Assembly: GCF_025790165.1 (NCBI RefSeq)
Contig: NZ_CP094970.1
Span: forward strand, 3,100,001 to 3,164,000
Direction: 5' to 3'
Length of the DNA: 64,000 bases
DNA from: Solicola gregarius
Lineage (GTDB): Bacteria > Actinomycetota > Actinomycetes > Propionibacteriales > Nocardioidaceae
Part shown: positions 1,838 through 57,534 of the stretch, one piece after another
How positions within the stretch are numbered: the first letter of the stretch is position 1
Layout of the letters: the number at the start of each line of letters is the position of its first letter
The notes under the pieces: generated by a model
The model's input: only the letters and a program-made list of their open reading frames with translations
Databases searched by the model: none
What the model was told of the DNA's origin: nothing
Program-made: the position numbers and the translations under genes

Positions 1838-1888
1838 TGCTCTCCTTGGGTCGCGGCGGTGACGTACCCGAATGTCGTGGGCGAATCC

Positions 1889-1925
1889 GACGGGACTAAA
1901 GTCCACAACGCCTACGGAGCATATT
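1889..1925 (+). promoter_or_regulatory. DosR/DevR-like box overlapping a sucC promoter
   Basis: GACGGGACTAAAGTCCACAA (1889-1908) matches about 17 of 20 positions of the mycobacterial DosR consensus TTSGGGACTWWAGTCCCSAA, with core palindrome GGACT-AA-AGTCC. A CATATT -10-like hexamer follows at 1920-1925, and a 17-base spacer would put the -35 hexamer inside the box, the usual activator layout. It could serve sucC, the divergent hydrolase, or both. The regulator is not encoded in this window as far as can be seen. Confidence 0.5.
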
Positions 1926-1997
1926 CCCCGGTCGTGTGGCCACGACAACTCTCCCCGAGCATCCGGTCAGTCGCCAGCTTTAAGGACGGACAGCACA

Positions 1998-3161
1998 GTG
2001 GATTTGATGGAGTACCAGGCGAAGGAGCTCTTCGCCAAGCACGAGGTGCCAGTGACGCTCGGCGTCGTGGCCGAGACGCCCGCCGACGCGAGGGCGGCGG
2101 CCGAGCAGCTGGGCGGCGCCGTCGTCGTCAAGGCTCAGGTCAAGGCCGGCGGCCGCGGTAAGGCCGGCGGCGTCAAGCTGGCGAAGACCCCCGACGAGGC
2201 CGAGGCCCGTGCCGGAGACATCCTCGGGATGCAGATCAAGGGCCTGACCGTCAACCGCGTGTTGATCGCTCCCGCCGCGCAGATCGCCGAGGAGTACTAC
2301 TTCTCCTTCCTCCTCGACAGGTCCAACCGCTCGTACCTCTGCATCGCGAGCGTCGAGGGTGGCGTCGAGATCGAGGAGGTCGCGAAGACCAACCCCGACG
2401 CCGTCAAGCAGATCTCGATCGACGCCGGCACCGGTGTCGACGAGGCGAAGGCCCGCGAGATCGTCGCCGAGGCCGCGTTCCCGGCCGAGCTGACCGACCA
2501 GGCCGTCGTCATGGTGCAGAAGCTCTGGGACGTGTTCACCCGTGAGGATGCGACGCTCGTCGAGGTCAACCCGCTGGCCCGGCTCGAGGGCGACGTGCTC
2601 GAGGCACTCGACGGCAAGGTCTCGCTCGACGAGAACGCCGACTTCCGCCACGAGGGCCACGCCGCGTTCGAGGACAAGGCCGCCGCCGACCCGCTCGAGG
2701 CGAAGGCGAAGGCGAAGGGTCTCAACTACGTGAAGCTCGACGGTGAGGTCGGCATCATCGGCAACGGCGCCGGCCTCGTGATGTCGACGCTCGATGTCGT
2801 CGCGTACGCGGGTGAGAGGCACGCGGGCGTCAAGCCCGCCAACTTCCTCGACATCGGCGGTGGTGCGTCGGCCGAGGTCATGGCGAACGGCCTCGACGTG
2901 ATTCTGAACGACCCGCAGGTCAATGCGGTCTTCGTCAATGTTTTCGGCGGCATCACCGCATGCGATGCGGTCGCCAACGGAATCGTCGGCGCGCTCGACC
3001 TGCTCGGCGACGAGGCGACCAAGCCGCTTGTCGTACGACTGGACGGCAACAACGTCGAGGAGGGGCGCCGGATCCTGACCGAGCGCAGTCACCCCCTCGT
3101 GACGATGGTGGACACGATGGACGGCGCCGCGGACCGCGCGGCCGAGCTGGCGAGCCGCTGA
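1998..3161 (+). CDS. sucC: succinyl-CoA synthetase beta subunit
   Basis: ADP- or GDP-forming succinyl-CoA ligase beta chain of the TCA cycle, 387 residues, the usual length. The GTG at 1998 gives the typical actinobacterial N-terminus [15 protein letters not shown], with AAGGA 11 bases upstream; the in-frame ATG at 2007 is an alternative. The ATP-grasp domain shows [11 protein letters not shown] near residue 46, and the CoA-ligase domain has [12 protein letters not shown] and the phosphohistidine-interacting VFGGITACD. Ten bases separate it from sucD, so the two form an operon. A DosR-like box with a -10 hexamer lies about 75-110 bases upstream. Confidence 0.97.
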
Positions 3162-3171
3162 GGAGGCAGAG

Positions 3172-4062
3172 ATGTCAATCTTTCTGAACAACGACTCCAA
3201 GGTCATCGTCCAGGGCATCACCGGGAGCGAGGGCTCGAAGCACACGGCGCGGATGCTCGCCGCCGGTACCCAGGTCGTGGGCGGCGTGAACGCCCGCAAG
3301 GCCGGCACCACGGTGCAGCACGGCGACGTCGAGCTGCCCGTGTTCGGCACGGTGCAGGAGGCCATGGACAAGACCGGCGCCAACGTGTCGGTCGTGTTCG
3401 TCCCGCCGGCGTTCACCAAGGACGCCGTGATCGAGGCCATCGACGCCGAGATGCCGCTGCTGGTGATCATCACCGAGGGTGTCCCCGTGCAGGACTCCGC
3501 GGAGTTCTGGGCGTACGCCAGCGAGCCGGGCCGCAAGACCCGGATCGTCGGTCCGAACTGCCCGGGCGTCATCACGCCGGGCGAGGCGCTCGCCGGGATC
3601 ACCCCGGCGAACATCACCGGCTCGGGCCCGATCGGGCTCGTCTCGAAGTCGGGCACGCTGACGTACCAGATGATGTTCGAGCTGAACGACTTCGGCTTCT
3701 CGACGGCCCTCGGCATCGGCGGCGACCCGATCATCGGCACGACGCACATCGACGCCCTCGAGGCGTTCGAAGCCGATCCGGAGACCAAGGCGATCGTGAT
3801 GATCGGCGAGATCGGCGGCGACGCCGAGGAGCGGGCCGCCGACTACATCAAGGCGAACGTCTCCAAGCCGGTCGTCGGGTACGTCGCGGGCTTCACCGCA
3901 CCCGAGGGCAAGACGATGGGCCACGCGGGAGCGATCGTGTCGGGCTCGTCCGGCACCGCCGCCGCGAAGAAGGAGGCCCTCGAGGCCGCCGGCGTGAAGG
4001 TCGGCAAGACGCCGTCGGAGACCGCCGAGCTGATGCGGGAGATCCTGAAGAGCCTCGGCTGA
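3172..4062 (+). CDS. sucD: succinyl-CoA synthetase alpha subunit
   Basis: Partner of SucC, 296 residues. The CoA-binding Rossmann domain begins with [28 protein letters not shown] and SKSGTLTYQ are family signatures. The phosphorylated active-site histidine lies in [15 protein letters not shown] near residue 250. AGGAGG precedes the ATG by a few bases. A strong hairpin terminator follows the stop, so the operon probably ends here. Confidence 0.97.
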
Positions 4063-4075
4063 CAGACAGCCTGAA

Positions 4076-4117
4076 CGGCGCATTGTCGCGGGTCGCGCCC
4101 GCGGCAATGCGCCTTTC
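4076..4117 (+). terminator. intrinsic terminator after sucCD
   Basis: GGCGCATTG (4077-4085) pairs perfectly with CAATGCGCC (4105-4113). The stem continues through CGCGGG/CCCGCG to a small loop, and TTTC follows. The hairpin starts 14 bases after the sucD stop. Confidence 0.85.
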
Positions 4118-4148
4118 GTATATACAGGCGCGGCGGAGGGAGCGTCGA

Positions 4149-5045
4149 TTGGCATCGGACGGAGATCGTCAGAAGCGGGCCCGTGACGACGACCGGGATC
4201 GAGTCGTCGCCGCGCTCGACGATGCGTACGTCGACGGCCAGATCGATGCCGACGAACGCGAGGCGCGGATCGCCGCGACGCTGAGTGCACGTACGCTCGC
4301 GGAGCTCGACGCGGTGCTCGCCGATCTCCAGGTCGAGAACGTCCTGCCGGAGCCCGAGCCGTCGAGCTCGAGGGCCCCGGTCATCGCGGCGGTTGCCGCC
4401 GTCGCCGTGCTCGGCTTCATCGGCTGGCAGATCGTCGGCGACGGCCCGGAGCCGCCCGACTCGTCTATCGGGTCCGTGAGCGAGGCGGAGTCGGCGGTCA
4501 CCGGCGAGGACGTGGTGATGTGGAGCGACGTCGAGAATGAGCTGAGCGCCGCGGCTCCTTCGGGCAAAGGCATCCGCGTGCCGGAGATCCAGGGGTGGTC
4601 GGGTAGCGAGGAAGACATCAGGGCGCTGATCGACGCATATCGAGAGAAGCGTGGGGATTACGTCGTCGAGGCGTCGTTCCGTCCGGAGTACGCCACCTTG
4701 AGCGAACCCCTCGGTGGCGCGGATCCGACCAGCCAGGTTTGGTCGTACTACCCCCATGACCCGATGTTGCGTTCATCGGCTGCCGCGTCTGATGGTGTAC
4801 GTGATCGGGTTCTGGTCGACCTGCGCGACCTCAACCTGGACCAGCTGTTCGCGAACTTCGAGTACGCGTTGACCGAGTTGAATGTCGAGGACGCGCAACT
4901 CCTCTACATCAGCGTGAACGAGTGGAACGGCGCTCCGCAGATCCAGATCTACGTCAGGGCGAAGAGGTACTCGAACGAGGTCGGGTACTTGAACACGACG
5001 CTGGAGGGTGAGAGAACCAGCGTGGTCGCGCACGACGGAGCCTGA
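4149..5045 (+). CDS. DUF1707 domain membrane protein
   Basis: A 298-residue protein. The N-terminal 60 residues form a DUF1707 domain (DDDRDRVVAALDDAYVDGQ, then ARTLAELDAVLADLQ), a small helical cytoplasmic module common in actinobacteria. One transmembrane helix follows at about 75-95. The remaining 200 residues are probably outside and match no family I recognise. The TTG at 4149 is chosen because GGAGGG lies 8 bases upstream and the domain begins at once. Upstream in-frame codons fall inside the sucD terminator. Function unknown. Confidence 0.75.
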   Translation: MASDGDRQKRARDDDRDRVVAALDDAYVDGQIDADEREARIAATLSARTLAELDAVLADLQVENVLPEPEPSSSRAPVIAAVAAVAVLGFIGWQIVGDGPEPPDSSIGSVSEAESAVTGEDVVMWSDVENELSAAAPSGKGIRVPEIQGWSGSEEDIRALIDAYREKRGDYVVEASFRPEYATLSEPLGGADPTSQVWSYYPHDPMLRSSAAASDGVRDRVLVDLRDLNLDQLFANFEYALTELNVEDAQLLYISVNEWNGAPQIQIYVRAKRYSNEVGYLNTTLEGERTSVVAHDGA

Positions 5046-5144
5046 GGTAACTCCGTCCCGAGTGGCGCAGATCGGTTGTTCACAACGCCGGTCGACAACA
5101 AACATGCGCCTCTCGCGGTGTCCGGGTAGCGCGCACGCCACCCC

Positions 5145-5214
5145 GGGGTGTAGCCAGCCCTACCCCAGATCGGGCCCTCGGCAGATGTTGACGCGCGCGC
5201 CGCGCAAATAGCGT
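5145..5214 (+). promoter_or_regulatory. candidate operator and promoter upstream of the MMPL gene
   Basis: An interrupted inverted repeat, GGGGTGTAG-CCAG-CCCTACCCC (5145-5166), lies just upstream of a -35/-10-like pair: TTGACG (5188-5193) and TAGCGT (5209-5214), with a short 15-base spacer. The position suits an activator, plausibly the response regulator encoded downstream at 8712. Confidence 0.4.
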
Positions 5215-5303
5215 CAGGGGTGTTCGGGAGACCCGCTCCGGACGGGGGGCGGAGCGGGACGTACGGACGAACATCCACCCACCTGCACCCTCTGAGGAGA
5301 CCC

Positions 5304-7454
5304 ATGTTCGCGTGGATCGGACGCCGCGTCGTCCACCATCCATGGCTCACGATCCTGGTCTGGATCGTCGGAGCCGTCACGGTCGCGTCGTTGGCGCCGT
5401 CGCTGGACACGACCCAGGACCAAGCCGACTTCCTGCCGCCTGCGTACGAGTCGGTCAAGGCGGCAGAGATCGCCGACACGTCGTTCCCGAGCGACAGCGA
5501 CCCGGCCGCGATCTTGGTGTTCAAGCGTGCCGACGGCGGCAAGCTCACCGCTGCCGACCAGAAGCAGATCACCTCGATGGTCGACGACCTCGACGCCAAC
5601 GACTACGGCGATGTGAAGCAGATCGTCACGGGCCCGGAGCAGGTCGCGCCGGACGGCACCATCATGCTGGCCAATGTCGTACCGACCAGCGACTCCGACT
5701 CGGTCATCTTCGGCGAGACGATGGCCGACTCCGTACGCGACCTGCGCGCCGATTCTGCGGAGCTGCTCGCCGACTCCGATCTCCAGATGGGCGTCACCGG
5801 AGATGCCGCGTCGAGCCTCGACGAGCTCGAGGCGACGGGGGATGTCGACCAGATGATCATGCTGGCCACGCTCGGCCTGATCGTGGTGTTGCTGTTGGCG
5901 ATCTTCCGCAGCCCGATCATAGCGATCCTTCCGATCGCCTCGATCGTCGTCGCGATGGTTGCGTCCACGGGCCTCATCGGGTGGGCGAGTGATCGGTTCG
6001 ACCTGCAGGTCGATACGAGCATTCAGCAGCTGTTGATCATCGTGCTGTTCGGTGTCGGCGCCGACTACTTCCTGTTCCTGATGTTCCGGTTCCGCGAGCG
6101 GCTACGCGCCGGCTCTGAGCCGAAGCAGGCGATGATCGAGGCCGTGGCCAGGGTCGGCGAGGCCATCACGTCGGCCGCCGCAGTCGTGATCATCGCGTTC
6201 ATGGCGCTCGCGCTCTCCACGCTCGGCCAGCTGCAGGCGTGGGGGCCGGCGCTCGCGATCGCCGTAGGAGTCACCCTCGCGGCCGGCCTGACCCTCGTAC
6301 CGGCTGTGGTGTCACTGCTCGGTACGAAGGTCTTCTGGCCGTCGAGGTCGTGGCAGCGCGTGCCCAAGGAGCGGGTCGCGGGCAGGCTCGGCGCGCTCGT
6401 CGCGCGCCGGCCGAAGGGGGTCGCGGCGGTCGCCGGTCTGATGATGGCCGTGCTCGCGATGCTCTCGGCGGGCTTCGTCGCCGAGTTCGACCAGTCCGAC
6501 TCCGGCCCGCAGGACACCGAGTCCGCGAAGGCGCTCGACGATCTGGAGTCCGGCTTCGCCGCCGGGCGTACGCGACCGACCGACATCCTCGTCAAGTCCG
6601 ACGATGGTGGATCGCTGGATCCGGCCTCCGTCGAGACCATGGGTCAGAGGCTCGCGGAAGTCGACGGTGTCGGCGACGTGTCGCCGGCGGAGATCAGCCC
6701 GGACGGCTCTGCCGCGCATCTGTCCGTCGTACTCGACGACGCACCCGAGTCCGGCGCTGCGAGGGACCTCGTCCGCGGCGACCTGCGCGACGTCGTCCAC
6801 GACTCCGCACCGGACGGGTCCGAGGCGTACGTCGGCGGGCTCACGTCGGTTCTCGTCGACATCGAGGACGCGGTCAATGTCGACTACAGGGTGGTGTTCC
6901 CCGTCGCCGCCGTCTGCATCCTCGTCGTACTCGCGCTGATGCTGCGTAGCGTGGTCGCGCCGTGGTACCTGATGGCGTCCGTTGCCCTTGGGTTCCTGGC
7001 CTCACTCGGCTCGACGGTGTTCGTCTTCCAGGAGCTGAAGGGCGAGAGCGGGCTGCTGTTCAGCCTGCCGCTGATGATGTACCTGTTCGTGGTCGCGATC
7101 GGCACCGACTACAACATCCTGATGGTCGCCCGACTACGGGAGGAAGCCCGCCAGGGGTACGAGCCGCGCGCCGCAGCGAGCCTCGCGGTCAGGCACACCG
7201 CCCCGACGATCGCCGCGGCAGGGCTCATCCTGGCCGGTACGTTCGGTGTCCTGCTCCTCGCCGAGAACGTCACGCTGCAGCAGATGGGCTTCGGCATCTC
7301 GATCGGCATCCTGATCGTGGCGTTCGTGATGGCGATGTTCCTGACGCCCGCGCTGACGGCCCTCGTCGGCCACAAGGCGTGGTGGCCGGGCCATCAGGAC
7401 CGCGGTCCGCAGCGTGAGCCCGCCCCGGAATCCACCTACGTGGGCGCCCGGTAG
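5304..7454 (+). CDS. MMPL family exporter (RND superfamily)
   Basis: A 716-residue polytopic transporter of the MmpL/RND type, normally moving lipids or hydrophobic compounds across the membrane with proton motive force. It has the duplicated layout: a first helix near residues 13-32, a large outside loop, a five-helix bundle (about 190-345), then a second loop and bundle. Both halves keep the membrane-embedded Asp-Tyr pair, in GVGADYFLFLMFRFRERL and AIGTDYNILMVARLREE, expected for the proton relay. GAGGAGA lies just before the ATG. A sensor kinase and response regulator follow 13 bases downstream, suggesting one regulated export unit. Confidence 0.92.
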   Translation: MFAWIGRRVVHHPWLTILVWIVGAVTVASLAPSLDTTQDQADFLPPAYESVKAAEIADTSFPSDSDPAAILVFKRADGGKLTAADQKQITSMVDDLDANDYGDVKQIVTGPEQVAPDGTIMLANVVPTSDSDSVIFGETMADSVRDLRADSAELLADSDLQMGVTGDAASSLDELEATGDVDQMIMLATLGLIVVLLLAIFRSPIIAILPIASIVVAMVASTGLIGWASDRFDLQVDTSIQQLLIIVLFGVGADYFLFLMFRFRERLRAGSEPKQAMIEAVARVGEAITSAAAVVIIAFMALALSTLGQLQAWGPALAIAVGVTLAAGLTLVPAVVSLLGTKVFWPSRSWQRVPKERVAGRLGALVARRPKGVAAVAGLMMAVLAMLSAGFVAEFDQSDSGPQDTESAKALDDLESGFAAGRTRPTDILVKSDDGGSLDPASVETMGQRLAEVDGVGDVSPAEISPDGSAAHLSVVLDDAPESGAARDLVRGDLRDVVHDSAPDGSEAYVGGLTSVLVDIEDAVNVDYRVVFPVAAVCILVVLALMLRSVVAPWYLMASVALGFLASLGSTVFVFQELKGESGLLFSLPLMMYLFVVAIGTDYNILMVARLREEARQGYEPRAAASLAVRHTAPTIAAAGLILAGTFGVLLLAENVTLQQMGFGISIGILIVAFVMAMFLTPALTALVGHKAWWPGHQDRGPQREPAPESTYVGAR

Positions 7455-7467
7455 CGTCACCATCACA

Positions 7468-8721
7468 ATGGGCAAGCTGTGGCATCTCGGCAGGGCGCGC
7501 GCCGTACGGTCGGCGCGCGTCCTGCCGTTCCTCGCCGTCGAGACGGGCGCATCGCTCATCTCCCTCGCCTGGCTCTTCGTGCTGATCATCATGGCGTTGG
7601 CGACCGTGCCGGGTTGGCTCGCACTGCCGTGGGGCGTCGGCGTGCTGCGGCGGCATGCCGATGTGGCTCGCCGCCGCGTCGGGCGGTTCTCCGGGCGAGC
7701 GATCGACTCGGCGTACGTGCCCCTCACCGGTAACTGGTTCGCTCGCGCGCAGGTCGCGTTCCAGGACCGCGCGACGTACCGCGATCTACTGTGGCTCGTC
7801 GTGCACGGCCTCCCTGGGTTCGTCATCGGGCTGGTCGGCGTGGTTCTGCCGCTCTCGGCGCTCAGCGACATCATCGTGCCCGCGTACTGGTGGGTCTTGC
7901 CGGCGGACGAGCCGGCCGCGCCGGTGTTCGAGGTGACGAGCTGGCCGCTCGCGTTCGCCACCATGGTTTTCGGCATCGCACTCATGGCGGTCGCGATCCT
8001 GGTGCTCCCGGCCCTTGCTGCAATGCGCGTGTGGTGGACGAGCAGGATGCTGCAGCCCAATCAGCAGGCGCTGCTGACCCGGCGCGTCTCCGAGCTGACC
8101 GAGAGCCGCGCATCGGCGCTCGAGGCGCACGGTTCGGAGCTGCGACGGATCGAACGCGATCTGCACGACGGCACCCAGAACAAGCTGGTCGGCGTCGTCA
8201 TGCATCTCGGTATCGTCGAGCGCTCGCTCGGGCGTAGCCCCGACCAGGTACGCCCGGTGTTGCTGAAGGCGCAGGAGGCCGCGGAGACGGCCCTCGCGGA
8301 ACTGCGTGACGTCGTACGCAACATCTACCCGCCGGTCCTGGACGAACGAGGTCTCGGGGGAGCGCTGGCCGCGGCCGTCGCTCGCTGCCCCGTCGACACC
8401 ACGCTGACCACCGAGGGGCTGCGGCGGGCACCGATCGCGGTCGAGTCGGCCGCGTACTTCGTCGTCTCGGAGGCGCTGACCAATATCGCGAAGCACAGCC
8501 GAGCGATGCGGGCGTGGGTCACGGTTGCGACCGTCGACGACAGGGCCGGGGATCGCGTCGTGATCGAGGTCCACGACGATGGGGTCGGCGGTGCGACCGA
8601 CGACGGCGGCACCGGACTGCCGGGCATCCGACGCCGGGTCGAAGCATTCGAGGGAGTTTTCGAGATGACCAGTCCCGACGGCGGTCCGACGACGCTGCAT
8701 GTGGAGATCCCATGCGGGTAG
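7468..8721 (+). CDS. sensor histidine kinase, NarL-type partner
   Basis: A 417-residue sensor kinase. The N-terminal 200 residues hold four hydrophobic segments and resemble the putative sensor domain (PF13796) found in actinobacterial kinases. The HisKA_3 dimerisation box is IERDLHDGTQNKLVGVV with phospho-acceptor H233. The HATPase region carries SEALTNIAKHS and VEVHDDGVGG-type N and G boxes. A TAGCGT -10-like hexamer at 7452-7457 predicts a leader of only about 4 bases. Stop and start overlap the response regulator by 10 bases. MMPL-kinase-regulator linkage suggests control of the exporter in response to a membrane signal. Confidence 0.92.
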   Translation: MGKLWHLGRARAVRSARVLPFLAVETGASLISLAWLFVLIIMALATVPGWLALPWGVGVLRRHADVARRRVGRFSGRAIDSAYVPLTGNWFARAQVAFQDRATYRDLLWLVVHGLPGFVIGLVGVVLPLSALSDIIVPAYWWVLPADEPAAPVFEVTSWPLAFATMVFGIALMAVAILVLPALAAMRVWWTSRMLQPNQQALLTRRVSELTESRASALEAHGSELRRIERDLHDGTQNKLVGVVMHLGIVERSLGRSPDQVRPVLLKAQEAAETALAELRDVVRNIYPPVLDERGLGGALAAAVARCPVDTTLTTEGLRRAPIAVESAAYFVVSEALTNIAKHSRAMRAWVTVATVDDRAGDRVVIEVHDDGVGGATDDGGTGLPGIRRRVEAFEGVFEMTSPDGGPTTLHVEIPCG

Positions 8722-9359
8722 TGATCGCCGAGGACGACGCGCTGCTGCGTCAGGGCCTCACCCTGCTGTTGTCGAACGAGGGCATCGAGGTCGCGTACGC
8801 GGCGGACAACGCGGACGACGTGCTCGCCCGGCTGCCCGAGCTCTCCCCGGACGTGGCCCTGCTCGACGTACGCCTCCCGCCGACGTTCAGCGACGAGGGC
8901 CTCAGGGCCGCCGTGGAAGCGCGGCGGATGATGCCCGAGCTGGCGATCCTCGTGCTTTCGGCGTACGTCGAGGACAGCTACGCCGCCGACCTTCTTGCCG
9001 GCGGAGCCGCGGGCATCGGCTACCTGCTCAAGGAGCGCGTCGGGAAGGTCGACAAGTTCCTCGATGCGCTGCGACGGGTCGTCGACGGCGGCACGGTCAT
9101 GGATCCCGAGGTCGTCTCGCAGCTGATGGTGCGGCGGCGCACCGACGATCCGCTGCATGCGCTCACGCCGCGCGAGCGCGAGGTCCTCGCACTGATGGCG
9201 GAGGGGCACGCGAACGCGCGCATCGCCGAGCTGATGTACGTCTCGGAGACCGCGGTCGGCAAGCACATCGGCAACATCTTCGCCAAGCTCGGGCTGTCAC
9301 CGGCCGAGTCCGGGCACCGGCGGGTGCTCGCCGTACTCGCCTACCTGCGGGCGCACTGA
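8712..9359 (+). CDS. LuxR/NarL family response regulator
   Basis: A 215-residue regulator with an N-terminal receiver domain (acidic pair in IAEDDALLRQG, phospho-acceptor D52 in LLDVRLPP) and a C-terminal LuxR-type helix-turn-helix (LTPREREVLALMAEGHAN, then SETAVGKHIGNIFAKL). It overlaps the kinase gene by 10 bases, so the pair is translationally coupled. A likely target is the inverted repeat in front of the MMPL gene. A complex palindrome follows the stop. Confidence 0.93.
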   Translation: MRVVIAEDDALLRQGLTLLLSNEGIEVAYAADNADDVLARLPELSPDVALLDVRLPPTFSDEGLRAAVEARRMMPELAILVLSAYVEDSYAADLLAGGAAGIGYLLKERVGKVDKFLDALRRVVDGGTVMDPEVVSQLMVRRRTDDPLHALTPREREVLALMAEGHANARIAELMYVSETAVGKHIGNIFAKLGLSPAESGHRRVLAVLAYLRAH

Positions 9360-9395: not shown

Positions 9396-9488
9396 GCAGC
9401 GATACCAAGTTCACTTGGTATCGCTGCACCTCCCTAGGCGTTGGTGCCTGGGGAAGTGAGCTAAACCAAGTGAACTTGGTATCGCTGC
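9396..9488. terminator. nested palindrome with two competing hairpins
   Basis: GCAGCGATACCAAGT (9396-9410) pairs perfectly with ACTTGGTATCGCTGC (9412-9426). The same left arm, as 18 bases ending in TTCA, also pairs perfectly with 9471-9488. The middle and right arms share ACTTGGTATCGCTGCACC. A smaller ACCAAGT-GA-ACTTGGT dyad lies at 9465-9480. The element sits between two convergent genes, so a two-way terminator is the simplest reading. Confidence 0.6.
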
Positions 9489-9501
9489 ACCCGGCCGTCG
9501 G

Positions 9502-11313
9502 TCACTCGGCGGGCGTACGGAGCCGCGCACCCGCCCGCGCGACGAGGCGGTCGAAGTCGGCCGGTCGCATGTCGTACTTGTCGAGCGGGGCGAACGTCAC
9601 CTGCGCCACGCGCCCGCCCGCGCGTACCAGGCCGAGGCGGTAGTCGACCGTGTGCTTGTCGTCGACCTCGAACGTGAGTCGCCAGGTGTTGCCGGTGATG
9701 CCCTTGGAGGCGATCCGCTTGCCATCGTGAACCTTCGCCGTGAGGTCGTCCTCCTCACACTTGCCGATGCGCCCGATGGCGTCGCGCATGAAGGCGACGG
9801 CCGCCTTCTGGTTCTTGAAGTCTCCGACCGTCTGGGAGATGCCGAAGGGCGACTGCGCGTCGGAGAGCGCCGGCTCCTCGGGTATGACGAAGGTACGCGC
9901 CTGCGCGCTGTCGATCGTCTTGCCCTTGAACTCGGCCTTGTCACAGGCGGTCGCGGACGGGTTCGGATTCGCACCCTCCGGGTCCGTACCGACCCACATC
10001 TTGTCGACGTTCTTGACCGGAGGCAGGTCGACGACGCCGAGGAACTCCGGCGCAGTGCTGGTGGCCGGCGGCAGCGACGGCCGGACCTTGCCGGGCTTGG
10101 CGCAGCCGCGGTCGTCGTCGTCGCACAGCGGCGCGAGCGACTCGTCGACAGCGCGGGAGAACTTGTCGACGTTTGCCCCGCGGTTGCCCTTCGCGGAGTG
10201 CACGAGTGTCGTCGTCACCAGCTCCGAATGGGTGACGCCGATGGTGTACGTGCGCGTCGGATCGTCCCAGCGGCGCATCTGCATCATCACGGTCTCGCGG
10301 CCGTCGTGACGCAGGGTGTACGACCGCATCAGCTGCAGACGGGGAACGGAGCAGTCGGCGTACCAGCTCACGGTGCGGCGGTATCCGGCCTCGGCGCTCT
10401 TCTCGTCGCGAGAGACCTCCAGCGACTGCACGGCGTACTGGCCTGAGTCGTCGTCCGGCGCGAACGTACGCACCCAGCCTCCGGCCGCGCGAGGATCGGC
10501 GAACCGCTGCGGCGTACACGTCGACAGGTTGTCGCGCTGCCTCATCCCGCTGCTCGTGTCGGTGGCCTTCCACGGCTTTCCGTCGATGTCACGCAGCTGG
10601 GAGTCGTCGAGCATGTCGTCGTCGGCCATGGGCAGCTCGTCGGGGTCGGCGAGCTGGCGCGCGTGTGGACCGGCGGCGTCGGCGGCGTTGTCGAGCGGGC
10701 CGCCCTGAGTGACGACGACCCCGGCACCGACGACCGCGAGCACACCGGCGGCGATCACTCCGACCGTACGACGGCGCCCACGCCGCTGGGCGCGGCGGCG
10801 GGCCAGGGAGGGGCGCTCGAAGGGCACTCCGTCGGTCACGGCCCGCAGGTCGCGCAGGCGCGCCTCGATCGACGGGCGGTCGGTGCCGAGCCGGCGCTCG
10901 AGTGCGGCACCGGCGGTGTCCGTCGCCGACGCGACGGACTCCTCCGTGACGCCGACCTCCCGGGCCGCGTCGTCGGGGCCGAGCTCACCGATGGTCTGGA
11001 GCACCAGCAGACGCCGGGCGTTGGCGGGGAGCTCGTGCAGGGCGTCGAGCAGCTCCTGGTCCTGGCCGTCGGAGTGCTTGCGCCGGCGCAGGTGCGGGCG
11101 GCGATGCAGCACCGACTGGCGCCAGGCCTCCGAGCGCACGAACGCGAGCGGGTCGCGCGAGCGCACCTTCGACCATCCCTGCCACGCCCTGGAATACGCG
11201 TCCTTGACCGAGGTCGTGGCGATACCGAGATCACCGGACAGCGCGTACACCTGGTGGAGTACGTACTGGCGGGTGGAGTCGTAGAACGAGTCGAACTCCT
11301 CGACGCGGGTCAT
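9502..11313 (-). CDS. sigma-factor-like protein fused to membrane anchor and outside domain
   Basis: A 603-residue protein with an unusual plan. Residues 1-160 resemble an ECF sigma factor: a region 2-like part (FDSFYDSTRQYVLHQVYALS, then AYSRAWQGWSKV) and a region 4-like helix-turn-helix (LPANARRLLVLQTIGELG, then AREVGVTEESV). A basic linker leads to one transmembrane helix (about 184-202), and about 400 residues follow outside with several cysteines (C382, C390 and neighbours, approximate). The ATG at 11313 has AAGGAGG five bases upstream; an in-frame GTG at 11334 contains that ribosome site. It could be a membrane-held sigma factor released by proteolysis, or a degenerate sigma fold acting as a sensor. 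Family unknown to me. Confidence 0.75.
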   Translation of the reverse strand: MTRVEEFDSFYDSTRQYVLHQVYALSGDLGIATTSVKDAYSRAWQGWSKVRSRDPLAFVRSEAWRQSVLHRRPHLRRRKHSDGQDQELLDALHELPANARRLLVLQTIGELGPDDAAREVGVTEESVASATDTAGAALERRLGTDRPSIEARLRDLRAVTDGVPFERPSLARRRAQRRGRRRTVGVIAAGVLAVVGAGVVVTQGGPLDNAADAAGPHARQLADPDELPMADDDMLDDSQLRDIDGKPWKATDTSSGMRQRDNLSTCTPQRFADPRAAGGWVRTFAPDDDSGQYAVQSLEVSRDEKSAEAGYRRTVSWYADCSVPRLQLMRSYTLRHDGRETVMMQMRRWDDPTRTYTIGVTHSELVTTTLVHSAKGNRGANVDKFSRAVDESLAPLCDDDDRGCAKPGKVRPSLPPATSTAPEFLGVVDLPPVKNVDKMWVGTDPEGANPNPSATACDKAEFKGKTIDSAQARTFVIPEEPALSDAQSPFGISQTVGDFKNQKAAVAFMRDAIGRIGKCEEDDLTAKVHDGKRIASKGITGNTWRLTFEVDDKHTVDYRLGLVRAGGRVAQVTFAPLDKYDMRPADFDRLVARAGARLRTPAE

Positions 11314-11540
11314 CCACCCCTCCTTCGAGTGCACAGGGACGCCGTGTGATTACTGAACGTTTCGTGTTGCTGCACGCGGAGCAACCCATACGACCGTAGA
11401 GGATGCGCCATGCCCACCCAACCGTGGGCGACGTTGCCTCCGACACACCGGCGTGTTGGCAGAGACCTGGCGGGATTCGCCGGGGACGATGGAGCGGTGA
11501 GGAGACAGCGACGGACGAACGCGACCGGTAGCGCGCTGCG

Positions 11541-12716
11541 ATGACGACCGTACGAGAGCGGGCGGAGGCTGCAGCGGCCCTGGCGCCCGAGGTGCCGCGT
11601 CGCCCGCCGGTCCTTTCGGGGGTGCTCGCCGCCGGCGCCGTCCAGCTCGGCGGGGTGGTGCTGTGCGTCGGTCTCGCCGTCGTGGTGTGGCTCGCCTCGG
11701 GTGCCGGTTCGATCTCGGCGGCGATGCAGATCGGTGCGGGGTTCTGGCTGGCGGGCCATGGTAGTGCCGTGTCGGTCGGCGGCATCGCGATCACGGTCGT
11801 ACCGCTCGGCGTACCGCTGCTCGCCGGTGTCGCCGTCGCGTACGCGGCCTACCGTCTCGGGCCGGAGTCGATCACCCAGCGTGAGGTCGGCACCCTGATG
11901 CTGAGCGCCGCCGCGACGTACGGCCTCGCGCTGGCTGTGACGGCCCTCGTGGCGTCCTCGCCTTCCGCGTCGTTCTCGGCGGTACGCGCCGGGCTGGGCG
12001 GATTCGCGCTCGCGGGGCTGTCCGCGTTCGTCGGTGCCATGTGCGTGGACGGTCGGCTGCGCGAGGTGTGGGAGTCAGCGCCGGGGTTCGTGCGCGGTGT
12101 CGTCTTGGGCGCCGGGTCGGCGTGCGGGGCATTGTTCGGTGCCGCTGTCGTGCTGCTCGCGTACCGGCTGATCGTGGGGTTCGGCGAGGTACACGACTCG
12201 TTCTCGCGGCTCGCCCCGGGCACGATCGGCGGCGCGGCGATCGTGCTCGTGTGTGTGCTACTCCTCCCGAACCTCCTGCTGCTGGCCGTCAGCGTGCTGC
12301 TCGGGCCCGGGTTCGCGTTCGGCACGGACACGTCGGTGACTGTCGTCGATGTGCGGCTCGGTGAGCTGCCGATCTTCCCGGTGACCGCCGCGCTGCCCGA
12401 TTCCGGTACGCCGCCCGGCTGGGTGGCGGCACTCATGGTCGTACCGCTGCTGGCCGGCCTGGTGGGCGGTGTCGTCGCCGGTCGAGCGTTCGACGATGCG
12501 TCGATCTACGACGCGATGGTGCGTGGCGCCACGGCGGGTGGCGCCGCCGGCCTGCTCGTCGGTCTCGTGGTCATGTGTGCGGGCGGCGCCGTCGGTCCGG
12601 GGCGGATGGCCGACGTGGGCGCCGCGATGTGGTGCATGCCGGTCGCCGTCGTCGCTCTGACGGTGGGCGGCGCACTGGGCGGTGCGCTGGGGCACTATCG
12701 TGAGCAGCGGTCGTAG
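11541..12716 (+). CDS. DUF6350 / PerM-like multi-pass membrane protein
   Basis: A 391-residue protein with about ten hydrophobic segments and almost no soluble domain, matching the actinobacterial DUF6350 family. The mycobacterial member PerM (Rv0955) is linked to cell division and persistence and likewise lies directly before purN and purH. The ATG at 11541 follows TAGCGC at the -10 position of a leaderless start (11529-11534) and lacks a clear ribosome site. Role here is inferred from synteny. Confidence 0.8.
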   Translation: MTTVRERAEAAAALAPEVPRRPPVLSGVLAAGAVQLGGVVLCVGLAVVVWLASGAGSISAAMQIGAGFWLAGHGSAVSVGGIAITVVPLGVPLLAGVAVAYAAYRLGPESITQREVGTLMLSAAATYGLALAVTALVASSPSASFSAVRAGLGGFALAGLSAFVGAMCVDGRLREVWESAPGFVRGVVLGAGSACGALFGAAVVLLAYRLIVGFGEVHDSFSRLAPGTIGGAAIVLVCVLLLPNLLLLAVSVLLGPGFAFGTDTSVTVVDVRLGELPIFPVTAALPDSGTPPGWVAALMVVPLLAGLVGGVVAGRAFDDASIYDAMVRGATAGGAAGLLVGLVVMCAGGAVGPGRMADVGAAMWCMPVAVVALTVGGALGGALGHYREQRS

Positions 12717-12737
12717 CGCCCAACAGAAAGTGCCTTC

Positions 12738-13376
12738 GTGCCCGTGTCATTTGGTCCTGTCGTGGACCGACCAGCGCGCGTCGTAGTCCTGGTCTCCGGA
12801 GCCGGCACCAACCTCCAGGCGCTCCTCGACGCGAGCCGCGGGTCGGCGTACGGCTGTGAGGTCGTCGCCGTCGGCTCCGATCGGCCCGGCGTACACGGGC
12901 TGGAGCGGGCCGAGAGCGCGGGCATACCGACGTTCGTGGAGTCGCTGCGCGATCATCCGCACCGCGAGAGCTGGGACGCTGCCCTCGCCAAAGCGGTCGC
13001 GGCGTACGAACCCGATCTCGTCGTCCTCGCGGGGTTCATGCGGTTGACCGGTCGCGCCTTCCTGGCCGCGCACGGCGGGCGTACGGTCAACACCCACCCC
13101 GCACTGTCGCCGTCGTTTCCGGGCATGCACGGCCCGCGCGACGCACTCGCGTACGGCGTGCGGGTCACTGGCGCAACGCTGTTCATCGTCGACGAGGGCG
13201 TCGACACCGGGCCGATCGTCGCGCAGGTCGCCGTGCCGGTCGAGTTCGACGATGACGAGGCGACGCTGCACGAACGCATCAAGGTCGCCGAGCGGGCAAT
13301 GCTCGTCGACACCGTGGGCCGGATGGCCCGCGAGGGGTACGTCATCGACAACAGATTGGTTCGGTTCGCAACGTGA
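12738..13376 (+). CDS. purN: phosphoribosylglycinamide formyltransferase
   Basis: Transfers the formyl group of 10-formyl-tetrahydrofolate to GAR in purine synthesis; 212 residues. [17 protein letters not shown] binds the phosphate. [12 protein letters not shown] contains the catalytic Asn/His (the family usually has NIHPSLLPSFPG). [10 protein letters not shown] holds the catalytic aspartate. The start is GTG with GAAAGT at -12 to -7, compatible with a leaderless mRNA. Its GTGA end overlaps purH by 4 bases. Confidence 0.96.
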
Positions 13377-14941
13377 GCACGACAACAGACGATGGTCGCC
13401 GGCCGCTGCGGCGCGCCCTGATCTCGGTGTACGACAAGACCGGACTCGAGGAGCTCGCGAAGGCATTGCACGACGCGGGAGTCGCGCTGGTCTCGACCGG
13501 TTCGACGGCCGGTCGGATCGCCGACGCGGGTGTTCCCGTCACCAAGGTCGAGGACCTCACCGGGTTTCCCGAGTGCCTCGACGGGCGGGTGAAGACGCTG
13601 CACCCGAAGGTGCACGCGGGCATCCTGGCCGACCGGCGGCGAGAGGACCACGAGCGGCAGCTCGCCGACCTCGGCATCGAGCCGTTCGACCTCGTCGTCA
13701 GCAACCTCTACCCGTTCGTCGAGACGGTGAGGTCGGGCGCGGAGCCCGACGAGGTGGTCGAGCAGATCGACATCGGTGGGCCGTCGATGGTGCGCGCGGC
13801 CGCCAAGAACCATCCGTCGGTCGCGATCGTGGTGTCACCCGACCGGTACGCGGACGTGGTGACGGCCGCCACGAGCGGCGGGTTCACCTTCGAAGAGCGC
13901 AAGCGGCTCGCGGCCGAGGCGTTCGCACACACCGCTTCGTACGACGTGGCGGTCGCGTCGTGGTTCGCGAACCAGTACGCGCCGGACGGCGCGGGATTCC
14001 CGGCGTGGACCGGCGCGACGTGGGAGCGTCAGGCGGTGCTCCGGTACGGCGAGAACCCCCATCAGGGCGCGGCGCTGTACCGGCACTGGCGTGGTGGCCT
14101 TGCGGCGGCCAAGCAGCTGCACGGCAAGGAGATGTCGTACAACAACTACGTCGATGCCGATGCCGCCCGGCGGGCAGCAGCGACGTTCGAGCAACCCGCC
14201 GTCGCGGTGATCAAGCACGCGAACCCGTGCGGCATCGCGGTCGGCGTCGACGTCGCCGAGGCGCATCGTCGTGCGCACGCCTGCGATCCGGTGTCGGCGT
14301 ACGGCGGCGTGATCGCCGTCAACGCGCCGGTTTCGGTCGCGATGGCCGAGCAGGTCGCGGAGGTCTTCACCGAGGTCGTCGTCGCGCCCGCGTACGAGCC
14401 CGGTGCGCTCGAGATCCTCGGCCGGAAGAAGAACATCCGGCTGCTCGAGGTGCCGGCCGACGAGTTCCCCGACCCGGTGGAGTTCCGGGGTATCAGCGGT
14501 GGTGTGCTGATGCAGCAGGTCGACCACGTCAATGCCCCTGGCGACGACCCGGGCACCTGGACCCTCGCGGCCGGCGATCCGGCGCCCGATGACGTACTCG
14601 CCGATCTGGCGTTCGCCTGGCGGGCGTCCCGTTCGGTGAAGTCGAACGCGATCCTGCTCGCCCGCGGCGGCGCCGCCGTCGGGGTCGGGATGGGTCAGGT
14701 CAATCGGGTCGACTCGTGCCGGTTGGCCGTCGAGCGGGCCGGTGCCGACCGAGCGCGTGGCTCGGTTGCGGCGTCGGACGCGTTCTTCCCGTTCCCCGAC
14801 GGCCCGCAGGTGCTGGCGGAGGCGGGCGTACGCGCGATCGTGCAGCCGGGCGGCTCCGTACGCGACGACGAGGTCGTCGAGTACGTCCGCTCCGCCGGCG
14901 TGACGATGTACTTCACCGGAACGCGGCACTTCTTCCACTGA
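13373..14941 (+). CDS. purH: bifunctional AICAR formyltransferase / IMP cyclohydrolase
   Basis: Catalyses the last two steps of IMP synthesis; 522 residues, normal length. The N-terminal IMP cyclohydrolase (MGS-like) domain shows [16 protein letters not shown] and [19 protein letters not shown]. The C-terminal AICAR transformylase domain carries the [11 protein letters not shown] and [12 protein letters not shown] motifs. Translation is coupled to purN by a GTGA overlap. Both enzymes use or release folate one-carbon units, linking them to FolD further downstream. Confidence 0.97.
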
Positions 14942-54507: not shown

Positions 54508-55765
54508 TCAGCGGCCCGCGGTCTCCTGCCAGCTGCTGCCGCCGTCGGTCGACACGTACATCCGTGAGCCCTCCGAGATGTACAACGTCGCCTCGTCGTC
54601 GCCGGTCACGGATTGCAGCAGATGCATCGCGTCCGTGCCGTCGCCCGGCAGCCCGTCGTTCGATGGGCGCATCTGCGACCAGTCGAGCCCGGCGCTGATC
54701 ACCGGCCCGCTTGGGCGGTACGTCGGGGGCGCGTCGCCGCCCCAGTCGACCTGCGCCAGGAGAGCGCCGTCGCTGCGTACGACGGCCCAGTCGACTGTTG
54801 CCTCCGGGATCCGGCCGTTGCCGCCGAGGGCGGGCAACCGTTGCCATGTCGCTCCGTCGTCGCGGGAGACGTGTACTGCGACGAACGGGAGGACAGTCGC
54901 ACCATCCGCACCCTCGACGATGGCGATCGTGTCGGGTTCGGCCGAGTCGGCGATCATGAAGATGCCGCCAGCCCGACGGGGTAGCGGATGCTGGCCCCAG
55001 GTCTGACCGCCGTCATCGGACCAGACCGCGCGCCAAGTCGCCGAATTGCCTTCGGAGTATGCGATCCCGACGAGCCGCCCATCCGGTTGTTCGACGAGCC
55101 CGTGCGTGTCGGGAGGGGCGTCGATCGGGTGTTCGGTTGCCGCCTCGGCGTCGATCGCGATGCCGCCGTACCGCGGGACGACTTCGCCGTCGCCGACGGG
55201 ACCGACACGCTCCGTTCTTTCGAGCGGCCTGAGTTCGCCCTCCGCCGAGAGGAGGAAGGATTCGTTGTGGGGCTGAACGGAGAAGGACCCGTTCGGCAAG
55301 GCGGCGATCTGAGCGTATGCGTCGTAGTTCTCGAACTCTTCGTACTCGGCCGTTCGAAAGCCGTCCTCTGTGACGGCAACGACCGTGCGCTCGTGTCGAC
55401 AGCGGTCGTTGGAGCACAGGTGCCACACGCTGGCACGAACGTCTGGGTCGTCCTCGGACACCGCAAAGCTGTAGAGCTGCGCCTCCTCGTCGTTGACAAC
55501 CTGCTCGGGCGTCAGGTCGTCCAGCTTCAGCGACTTCGGCGGCGTCGGCGACGGTGCCGGTTCGGGGCGGTCATCCGAGCCGCGGTCGATGCCGACCACG
55601 CCGAGCACGACGATCACCGCGGCGGCGAGCACGGCGGAGCCGACGACGCGCACGTGCGAGCGCCGCCGGCGTACCGCACCCCGCCGAATCAGTGCATCGA
55701 CGTCGCTCGGACGCGCCGACTCGCGGGCGTACGCCGCGTACGACTCATCGAGTAGGTCATCGAGG

Positions 55766-55773
<8 letters not shown>
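54508..55773 (-). CDS. membrane protein paired with ECF sigma factor
   Basis: A 421-residue protein with a 42-residue basic cytoplasmic head, one helix (about 44-62) and a large outside part containing BNR/sialidase-like repeats (SDDGGQTW, SRDDGATW, STDGGSSW). GGAGGAGG precedes ATG 55773. It overlaps the sigma gene by 8 bases, so it is the natural candidate for its anti-sigma or sensor partner, although no zinc-binding anti-sigma motif is visible. The outside repeats probably form a propeller sensing an envelope signal. Confidence 0.75.

Positions 55774-57534
<1,761 letters not shown>

Follow-up and report, generated by a model that had tools for sequence, protein, structure and literature searches.

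A membrane protein of Solicola gregarius with a sigma-like head that has lost nearly all of its contact residues

The protein considered here is encoded by a single gene at positions 9502-11313 (minus strand) of a 64,000-nucleotide stretch of the Solicola gregarius contig NZ_CP094970.1 (‘the window’ in what follows), and it combines features of several described systems. Among the closest are the SigE-family extracytoplasmic function (ECF) sigma factors whose gene overlaps that of a partner with a single transmembrane (TM) helix: the head of the window protein is homologous to such a sigma factor, the partner is a homologue of its juxtamembrane segment and outer domain, and pairs of this kind occupy the same locus in other families. 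Those pairs consist of two genes, the contact residues of the sigma factor are canonical and GCAACC frequently lies upstream, whereas the window protein is one chain with degenerate contacts and no such motif.

A layout in which sigma factor, TM helix and outer extension follow one another in one chain, as they do in the window protein, is also found in ECF48, ECF52, ECF53 and IutY (ECF243), which the portion of PMC8999054 drawn upon describes as fusions of a sigma factor and a membrane anti-sigma; the ECF52 member SCO4117 is described in PMC5826349 (likewise used in part). The premise of an earlier, first-pass annotation of the window, that known ECF systems keep the sigma factor apart from its membrane anti-sigma, is therefore mistaken as a rule. 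These fused proteins, however, are treated as working sigma factors, and the actinobacterial ones among them (ECF48, ECF52 and ECF53) possess a zinc-finger anti-sigma domain, placed between sigma factor and TM helix, according to the same portion of PMC8999054, whereas residues 145-182 of the window protein contain neither Cys nor His and give no Pfam match at E<=1, and its sigma part appears too degenerate to count as a competent sigma domain.

The degeneration itself has a parallel in PhyR, of the alphaproteobacterial general stress response, whose sigma-like domain shares with the window head a sigma fold (VIA Z 13.8 to 4qic) combined with degenerate promoter and RNA polymerase regions; the section of PMC8103513 consulted states that the ECF structure of PhyR is correct and that its promoter and core RNA polymerase regions appear degenerate. 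PhyR is a response regulator, whereas the window protein is an Actinomycetes membrane protein in which Pfam matched no receiver domain at E<=1, and which has a TM helix and PknH-like modules instead. The fold of those modules is that of the extracellular domain of PknH, of TiME and of LpqN; the window protein, however, has no kinase and carries two tandem modules behind its ‘pseudo-sigma’ head. The window protein, then, joins the layout of the fused sigma/anti-sigma ECFs to the degeneration of PhyR.

We consider, with a probability of about 0.7, that this gene encodes a one-piece membrane protein with a sigma-mimic cytoplasmic head rather than an initiator of transcription, and that the pseudo-sigma head has probably been kept for protein interaction. 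The fusion, the homology of both halves to a two-gene system, the loss of contact columns, the absence of the motif, the constraint on the head and a predicted closed fold are established by computation. To our knowledge sigma mimicry is otherwise known only from PhyR, and a membrane-bound actinobacterial case would be added to it here; proteins that match sigma models at this locus may, as a warning, not be sigma factors. No description of the window protein was recognized in the literature searched, which covered neither most subscription papers nor the 2021 ECF re-classification, and a search for three locus tags of the Streptomyces region likewise gave none.

The sigma-like head and its contact columns

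The open reading frame (ORF) runs on the minus strand from an ATG at 11313 to a stop at 9502, and its 603 amino acids comprise the pseudo-sigma head, a juxtamembrane segment, a TM helix and two outer modules; the frame stays open as far as a GTG 21 nt farther upstream, and a ribosome-binding-site-like AAGGAGGGG lies ahead of the ATG at 11317-11325. The head (residues 1-144) consists of sigma2 and sigma4 and is followed by a short basic segment, the one TM helix and roughly 400 outer residues. The SigE-family model TIGR02983 matches residues 3-144 (E 1.6e-15, 57.4 bits, short of the cut-off of 141.55) and Pfam Sigma70_r4_2 matches residues 86-129 (E 3.4e-5, 23.8 bits, just below the cut-off of 25.7), while no Pfam region 2 match was obtained in the window protein at E<=1. 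When a profile of 32 homologues was compared with the PDB, all 21 of the sequences matched at E<=1 were sigma factors or sigma constructs. The first-pass observation of a sigma-like head, a TM helix and a 400-residue outer domain in one chain is borne out by the ORF, the TIGR02983 and Pfam matches, the hydropathy, the PDB profile and the predicted fold; chance resemblance to a sigma factor is ruled out by the profile E-values, the PDB profile matches and the fold.

In the model of the head, the sigma2-like domain (residues 3-70; 11104-11307) is built of helices at residues 3-26, 29-45, 47-51 and 55-70, and contains the region 2.2 position (residues 32-40, ATTSVKDAY; 11194-11220), where T34 and K37 replace the D and Q of free sigma factors. 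The linker between the two domains (residues 71-82; 11068-11103) is shortened where free sigma factors have the region 2.4 arginines, and the four-helix sigma4-like domain (residues 83-142; 10888-11067) includes the former promoter-recognition helix (residues 124-139, EESVASATDTAGAALE; 10897-10944), from which GTVK has been lost. Then follow the cytoplasmic juxtamembrane segment (residues 146-182; 10768-10878), homologous to the N-terminus of the separate partner in two-gene relatives, and the TM helix (about residues 183-203; 10705-10767; Kyte-Doolittle mean 2.46 over 19 residues), which is the protein's one hydrophobic segment, peaks at 183-202 and is preceded by the strongly basic RRAQRRGRRR.

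Outer module 1 (residues 226-399; 10117-10638) is predicted to have a PknH/TiME-like fold (VIA Z 15.1, 2.7 Å over 160 aligned residues to PknH, 4esq; Z 14.2 to TiME, 7cu8_E) and outer module 2 (residues 422-601; 9511-10050) a related one (VIA Z 11.3 to 3lyd_A and 8.8 to LpqN, 6e5d). The Pfam model PknH_C (PF14032) gives no match in the window protein, and stays below its cut-off of 27 in three relatives (24.0, 14.9 and 18.5 bits). Six outer cysteines (266, 321, 397, 404, 457 and 519) are invariant across the 32 homologues, and would form disulfides outside the cell.

Region 2.4 of a sigma factor reads the -10 element. Regions 2.1 and 2.2 bind the beta-prime clamp helices of RNA polymerase, and sigma4 residues touch the -35 element, according to the part of PMC7406223 used here. 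Columns were compared between 25 genus-level fused heads and 38 free relatives, the latter made up of neighbors and of loci found with the SigE model, some of which score below the SigE cut-off. In region 2.2, the D is present in 0.04 of the fused heads (1/25; T34 in the window) versus 0.92 of the free relatives, and the Q in 0.08 (2/25; K37 in the window) versus 1.00; the region 2.4 arginines stand at 0.00 and 0.04 versus 1.00 and 0.84, and the G, T, V and K of the recognition helix at 0.00, 0.04, 0.08 and 0.00 versus 0.97, 1.00, 0.92 and 0.84. Other columns are kept in the fused heads, namely F7 (0.92), G27 (0.96), A32 (0.84), R60 (1.00), L95 (1.00), R100 (1.00), L105 (0.96) and L138 (0.80). 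The mean net charge of the recognition helix is -2.0 (range -5 to 4) in fused heads versus +3.7 (2 to 5) in free relatives. TIGR02983 scores run from 40 to 68 bits in six fused proteins (39.9-68.2 in the five besides the window's), and from 139.1 to 155.4 bits in five free relatives, of which three pass the cut-off and two (139.1 and 141.0) fall just below it. A separate alignment of free sigma factors has 36 rows, of which one is redundant (L059 = L144); it was drawn from 30 free loci, and L130, L141 and L147 yielded no row at its cut-off.

Because the contact columns of regions 2.2, 2.4 and 4.2 are lost while the fold columns are mostly kept, the window head is, as judged from sequence, not a working sigma factor; the split between structural and contact columns looks strong, not perfect, and the residues that would touch RNA polymerase, whose complete loss the first-pass annotation had named as refuting its proposal, are largely gone at the level of sequence. 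The window supplies an internal control, a SigE-family sigma factor (55766-56266, minus strand; 135.1 bits, itself below the TIGR02983 cut-off) with canonical contact residues, which retains VVQEAF, has GCAACC at about 56314-56319, some 50 nt upstream, and is overlapped by the gene of a membrane partner (54508-55773, minus strand) with weak BNR matches in its outer part.

The full AlphaFold model, made from 32 homologues, has a mean predicted local distance difference test score (pLDDT) of 84.5, and the model of the head alone, from 33, one of 87.5. Both Foldseek and VIA group the predicted head with ECF sigma factors, and the sigma2 and sigma4 folds, whose absence would have counted against the first-pass proposal, are both present in it: residues 1-75 match SigL (6tyg_F) with a VIA Z of 10.6 at a root-mean-square deviation (rmsd) of 2.2 Å, and the sigma4-like domain matches that of SigD (3vfz_A) with Z 10.4 at 1.7 Å over 62 residues. 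The whole head matches RpoE-NepR (5uxx_C) with Z 17.1 at 2.6 Å over 146 aligned residues, with further closed-form matches, besides that to PhyR, to SigW-RsiW (Z 15.7) and CnrH-CnrY (Z 15.3). For RNA polymerase-bound ECFs, an alignment that spans both domains has an rmsd of 21-29 Å, and otherwise sigma2 alone is aligned (SigL, as above). The head is thus predicted in the closed form, with its two domains packed together, a state that is not proof of a bound anti-sigma.

Selection on the head was estimated with Nei-Gojobori ratios of nonsynonymous to synonymous substitution rates (dN/dS), using 71 fused genes from which one (L077, with a stop or broken frame in the reading) was dropped; the remaining 70 represent 59 distinct sequences and are mostly Aeromicrobium-like. 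Among pairs with a synonymous rate (dS) of 0.1-0.5, dN/dS was lower for the head than for the outer domain in 116 of 118, with medians of 0.26 and 0.56, and in pairs with a dS of 0.5-1.2, where saturation sets in, the head was lower in 1273 of 1537 (medians 0.73 and 0.94). Between the window and its congener the head value is 0.23 and that of the outer domain 0.33, and the 40 lowest-dS pairs listed have head values of 0.00-0.15. Constraint is thus tighter on the head than on the outer domain, and simple unconstrained decay is ruled out by these ratios. D54 and R78 are conserved in the fused heads (0.88 each) and are not shared with free relatives.

Distribution and descent of the fusion

The locus is syntenic among the examples examined, in the order sucCD, X, DUF6350 and purNH, where the sucCD side was seen wherever the stretch reached that far. 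In the window, the fused gene stands between what we take to be sucC and sucD (1872-4062, plus strand) and a plus-strand block (11541-14941) that holds a gene for a DUF6350 membrane protein (Pfam PF19877; 11541-12716) followed by, presumably, purN (12738-13376) and purH (13373-14941). Within the window's family (f1), a match at E<=1e-15 was obtained in 133 of 149 genomes, and in 122 of the 149, by hand count, a single open frame includes the head together with some or all of the outer domain (two genomes, G066 and G134, are frameshifted, and the sequence of G082 ends at a contig edge), so that most homologues do keep the fusion, a question the first-pass annotation had raised. An earlier tally of 51/58 counts any match, ordinary sigma factors included. 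Conservation across genera rules out an artefact of the window genome, and frameshifted copies of the fusion occur elsewhere (L154, L160). A second genome collection yielded 37 loci, 25 of them full-length fusions and 21 of those labelled Aeromicrobium, in a search whose query was built from sequences close to Aeromicrobium-labelled ones; these labels suggest that family f1 is Nocardioidaceae. The locus was viewed in nine of the 16 family f1 genomes that gave no match; in four of these (G003, G012, G016, G167), sucCD adjoins DUF6350 with nothing between.

At the same place, family f4 (L059-L061) has a canonical SigE sigma gene whose end is overlapped by that of a single-TM partner of about 350-400 amino acids (the two-gene form of L059 was read from a frame translation), and Phycicoccus (L112) and Knoellia (L115), which we take to belong to another order, have the two-gene form there as well. 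In the three pairs whose junction was read, the sigma stop and the partner start overlap by a few bases. Eight family f1 loci hold both the fusion (in L160, its frameshifted copy) and a canonical sigma-partner pair, which lies either beyond a kynureninase-like gene (L037, L039, L040, L042) or directly beside the fusion (L047, L160, L163, L164). The juxtamembrane segment of 25 fused proteins aligns with the N-terminus of 11 partner rows over 42 columns (hhalign probability 95.9%, E 5.3e-9 for that one comparison), and four partners show weak outer-domain similarity to the fused proteins (13.8-29.5 bits). A first tree unites the 25 fused heads (100/100) and sets them beside the f4 sigma factors (94/38); a second, with 40 rows, again recovers the fused clade (14 rows, 95/91) and places the f4 sigma factors with other canonical ones. 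The window gene thus seems to have arisen when a sigma/partner pair of this kind was fused.

One locus, L037, has a single frame of 636 amino acids running through the sigma and partner genes (3585-5495, minus strand), with canonical sigma residues intact and a GCAACC motif present; this is possibly a second fusion, made perhaps by a one-base change at the junction, or else a sequencing slip in that draft. What we take to be a kynureninase-like gene stands beside the fusion or the headless form in L037, L038, L039, L040, L042, L154, L155, L161 and others.

GCAACC with a spaced second element lies within 250 nt upstream of 3/3 f4 sigma genes and 7/10 pair sigma genes, and with a looser second element upstream of both the Phycicoccus and the Knoellia sigma gene; among canonical sigma genes of other orders GCAACC was found within 330 nt upstream in 4/8, so the motif is not universal. 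Upstream of the 70 fused genes (59 distinct) GCAACC was found in none, against a shuffle mean of 7.8, and a relaxed pattern was found in five, against 3.7 expected from shuffles; we do not claim the fused gene as a member of a GCAACC regulon. Two pair-bearing genomes (G011, G024) each have a single copy of the exact pattern, ahead of the pair sigma gene, and the f4 form is likewise found only once, ahead of the sigma gene, in each of two f4 genomes (G042, G057), with control matches of one and two. The exact two-part pattern occurs nine times in the window genome versus four for the control, and nine versus three in its congener, a mild excess in which no listed match lies at the fused gene. 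Because of its position and spacing, the GCAACC box may be an autoregulatory promoter, and the fused gene would then have lost both the reader and the site. One syntenic locus appears to show a transcription factor turning into something else, from a canonical pair with the motif, through an intact fusion (L037, if not a sequencing slip), to a fused head that keeps the fold and has neither contacts nor motif.

Explanations for the retained head

In the mechanism that we propose, the gene of an ECF sigma factor would have been fused with the overlapping gene of its own single-pass membrane partner, and the sigma part would have become a pseudo-sigma, its helical fold under selection and its surfaces for RNA polymerase and promoter DNA gone. 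The head would pack, closed, against its own juxtamembrane segment (the former partner), and a change of state in the two PknH-like outer modules would alter that packing and, with it, the binding properties of head or segment; the self-packing, the signaling and any binding partner are what we infer. Of the first-pass suggestion of a sensor that kept the sigma fold, the kept fold is supported, together with the loss of contact residues and the selection on the head, and the sensing would follow from the proposed mechanism.

Several observations weigh against this interpretation. The outer domain occurs without a detectable head or remnant in eight of the 149 family f1 genomes by hand count (G008, G025, G075, G088, G093, G095, G107 and G112; G088 with an in-frame stop), so the head is dispensable in places. 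Four columns conserved in free sigma factors and probably structural (L18, P96, V104 and L111) are weakened in the fused heads (0.32-0.56). The sister relation between fused heads and f4 sigma factors is weak in one tree (94/38) and absent from the other, no outer-domain match was obtained for the majority of the partners compared, and the partner resembles an anti-sigma only in its position, its overlap and a weak hidden Markov model (HMM) match (NF052375, E 9e-4). If, as we assume, R178 of E. coli RpoE maps onto the fused-head column concerned, the fused head no longer has the sigma4 arginine to which class I anti-sigmas pair, so that its anti-sigma surface is altered too; that this arginine is R178 of RpoE is taken from the part of PMC7406223 mentioned above. 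Among the structural comparisons, the closed form also matches SigG1 (7qh5, Z 14.6, 3.1 Å) and SigJ (5xe7, Z 10.8), whereas the anti-sigma-bound SigK (9.6 Å) and BldN (11.6 Å) fit the head badly over both domains and RpoE-RseA and AlgU-MucA, also anti-sigma-bound, align with it over sigma4 alone. As far as the models go, the closed form is not specific to a bound anti-sigma.

The first alternative is that function resides wholly in the outer modules, and that the head is a passive cap or slow relic that merely folds around and stabilizes the former partner segment. We think this unlikely, although it deserves real weight: besides the eight headless genomes, families f2 and f3 have, in the six loci inspected, a TM helix and outer part with no detectable head, and the juxtamembrane segment, which leave-out HMMs detect in 25/25 fused proteins, went undetected in 14/14 headless loci. 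Such joint loss of adjacent pieces could, however, be a single deletion each time, and the head is more constrained than the outer domain and has conserved columns of its own, D54 and R78 for example.

Slightly less probable is a membrane-bound ‘anti-anti-sigma’, in which a PhyR-like decoy head would titrate a separate membrane anti-sigma and so free a canonical SigE-family sigma factor. The structural match to PhyR, degenerate in the same functional regions (in the section of PMC8103513 cited), is in its favor, as are several family f1 genomes in which the fusion is accompanied by a canonical pair; in many genomes with the fusion, that of the window among them, no such pair is nevertheless present at the locus, and the head already has a partner-like segment in cis.

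The first-pass annotation had also offered a membrane-tethered sigma factor that cleavage would set free, as for IutY or as proposed for the ECF52 member SCO4117, and fusions with this one-chain layout do exist (PMC8999054 and PMC5826349, in the parts cited); we regard it as very improbable, given that almost none of the 25 fused heads retains the contact columns of regions 2.2, 2.4 and 4.2, that the GCAACC motif is absent upstream of the 70 fused genes, that the TIGR02983 score is far below the cut-off and that there is no Pfam region 2 match. Least probable of all is a newly gained contact with nucleic acid or RNA polymerase, such as might tether transcription to the membrane, for although region 2.2 (charge +0.5 in fused versus -1.8 in free sequences) and region 2.4 with the linker (+5.0 versus +2.5) have become more basic, the recognition helix has turned acidic.

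Relatives in other lineages and neighboring genes

A class-wide profile search matched 43 of 148 genomes at E<=1e-25, and outside the window's family most of the listed matches end within the sigma part or shortly beyond it. In one genus (g51, with genomes of 7.8-9.9 Mb) the match extends to residue 208-240 in 9/9 matching genomes. Six g51 loci were read (L219-L223, L225), and all adjoin sucC, sucD or DUF6350, as in the window. Their sigma sequences have ARESVE[R/Q]AF (SQEAVERAF in L225) where the Q-E motif would stand, lack GTVK, and continue into a basic segment and a hydrophobic helix; the dN/dS of the g51 head is 0.15-0.40 over 15 pairs. The GCAACC test says little for these proteins, because coding sequence can precede their sigma part. 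L221, L223 and L225 have an XRE-like helix-turn-helix in frame with, and upstream of, the sigma part (by eye, in a check that did not take in L219 and L220). The 40-row tree separates the fused and g51 heads together from the remaining rows, but the support for this split (91/77) is, with the long branches, not decisive, and a joint clade is not shown. A broader proposal, which we regard as doubtful, is that pseudo-sigma heads in Actinomycetes arose independently of PhyR, at the membrane; that a fused sigma/anti-sigma pair turned there into a receptor, in which the pseudo-sigma head would compete for the segments of anti-sigmas and external signals received by PknH-like modules would retune free SigE-family sigma factors; and that the g51 version belongs to the same ancient pseudo-sigma lineage.

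A further arrangement was seen in family f23 (L224, 1779-5280, minus strand), where a sigma gene with intact region 2.2 and altered region 4 stands behind a GCAACC box; the order there is altered sigma, canonical sigma, a 493 amino acid gene in the partner's place and a kynureninase-like gene.

In the window, genes that we take to be DUF1707-like, MMPL-like, histidine kinase and response regulator genes (4083-9359, plus strand) lie between sucD and the fused gene; the DUF1707, MMPL and kinase genes are also present in the congener (L033), and not at that place in the other family loci compared. Between the response regulator and the fused gene, at 9396-9491, lie two direct copies of a palindromic repeat (GCAGCGATACCAAGT / ACTTGGTATCGCTGC), which, searched genome-wide on both strands with at most one mismatch, gave 13 matches versus 0 for a reversed control.

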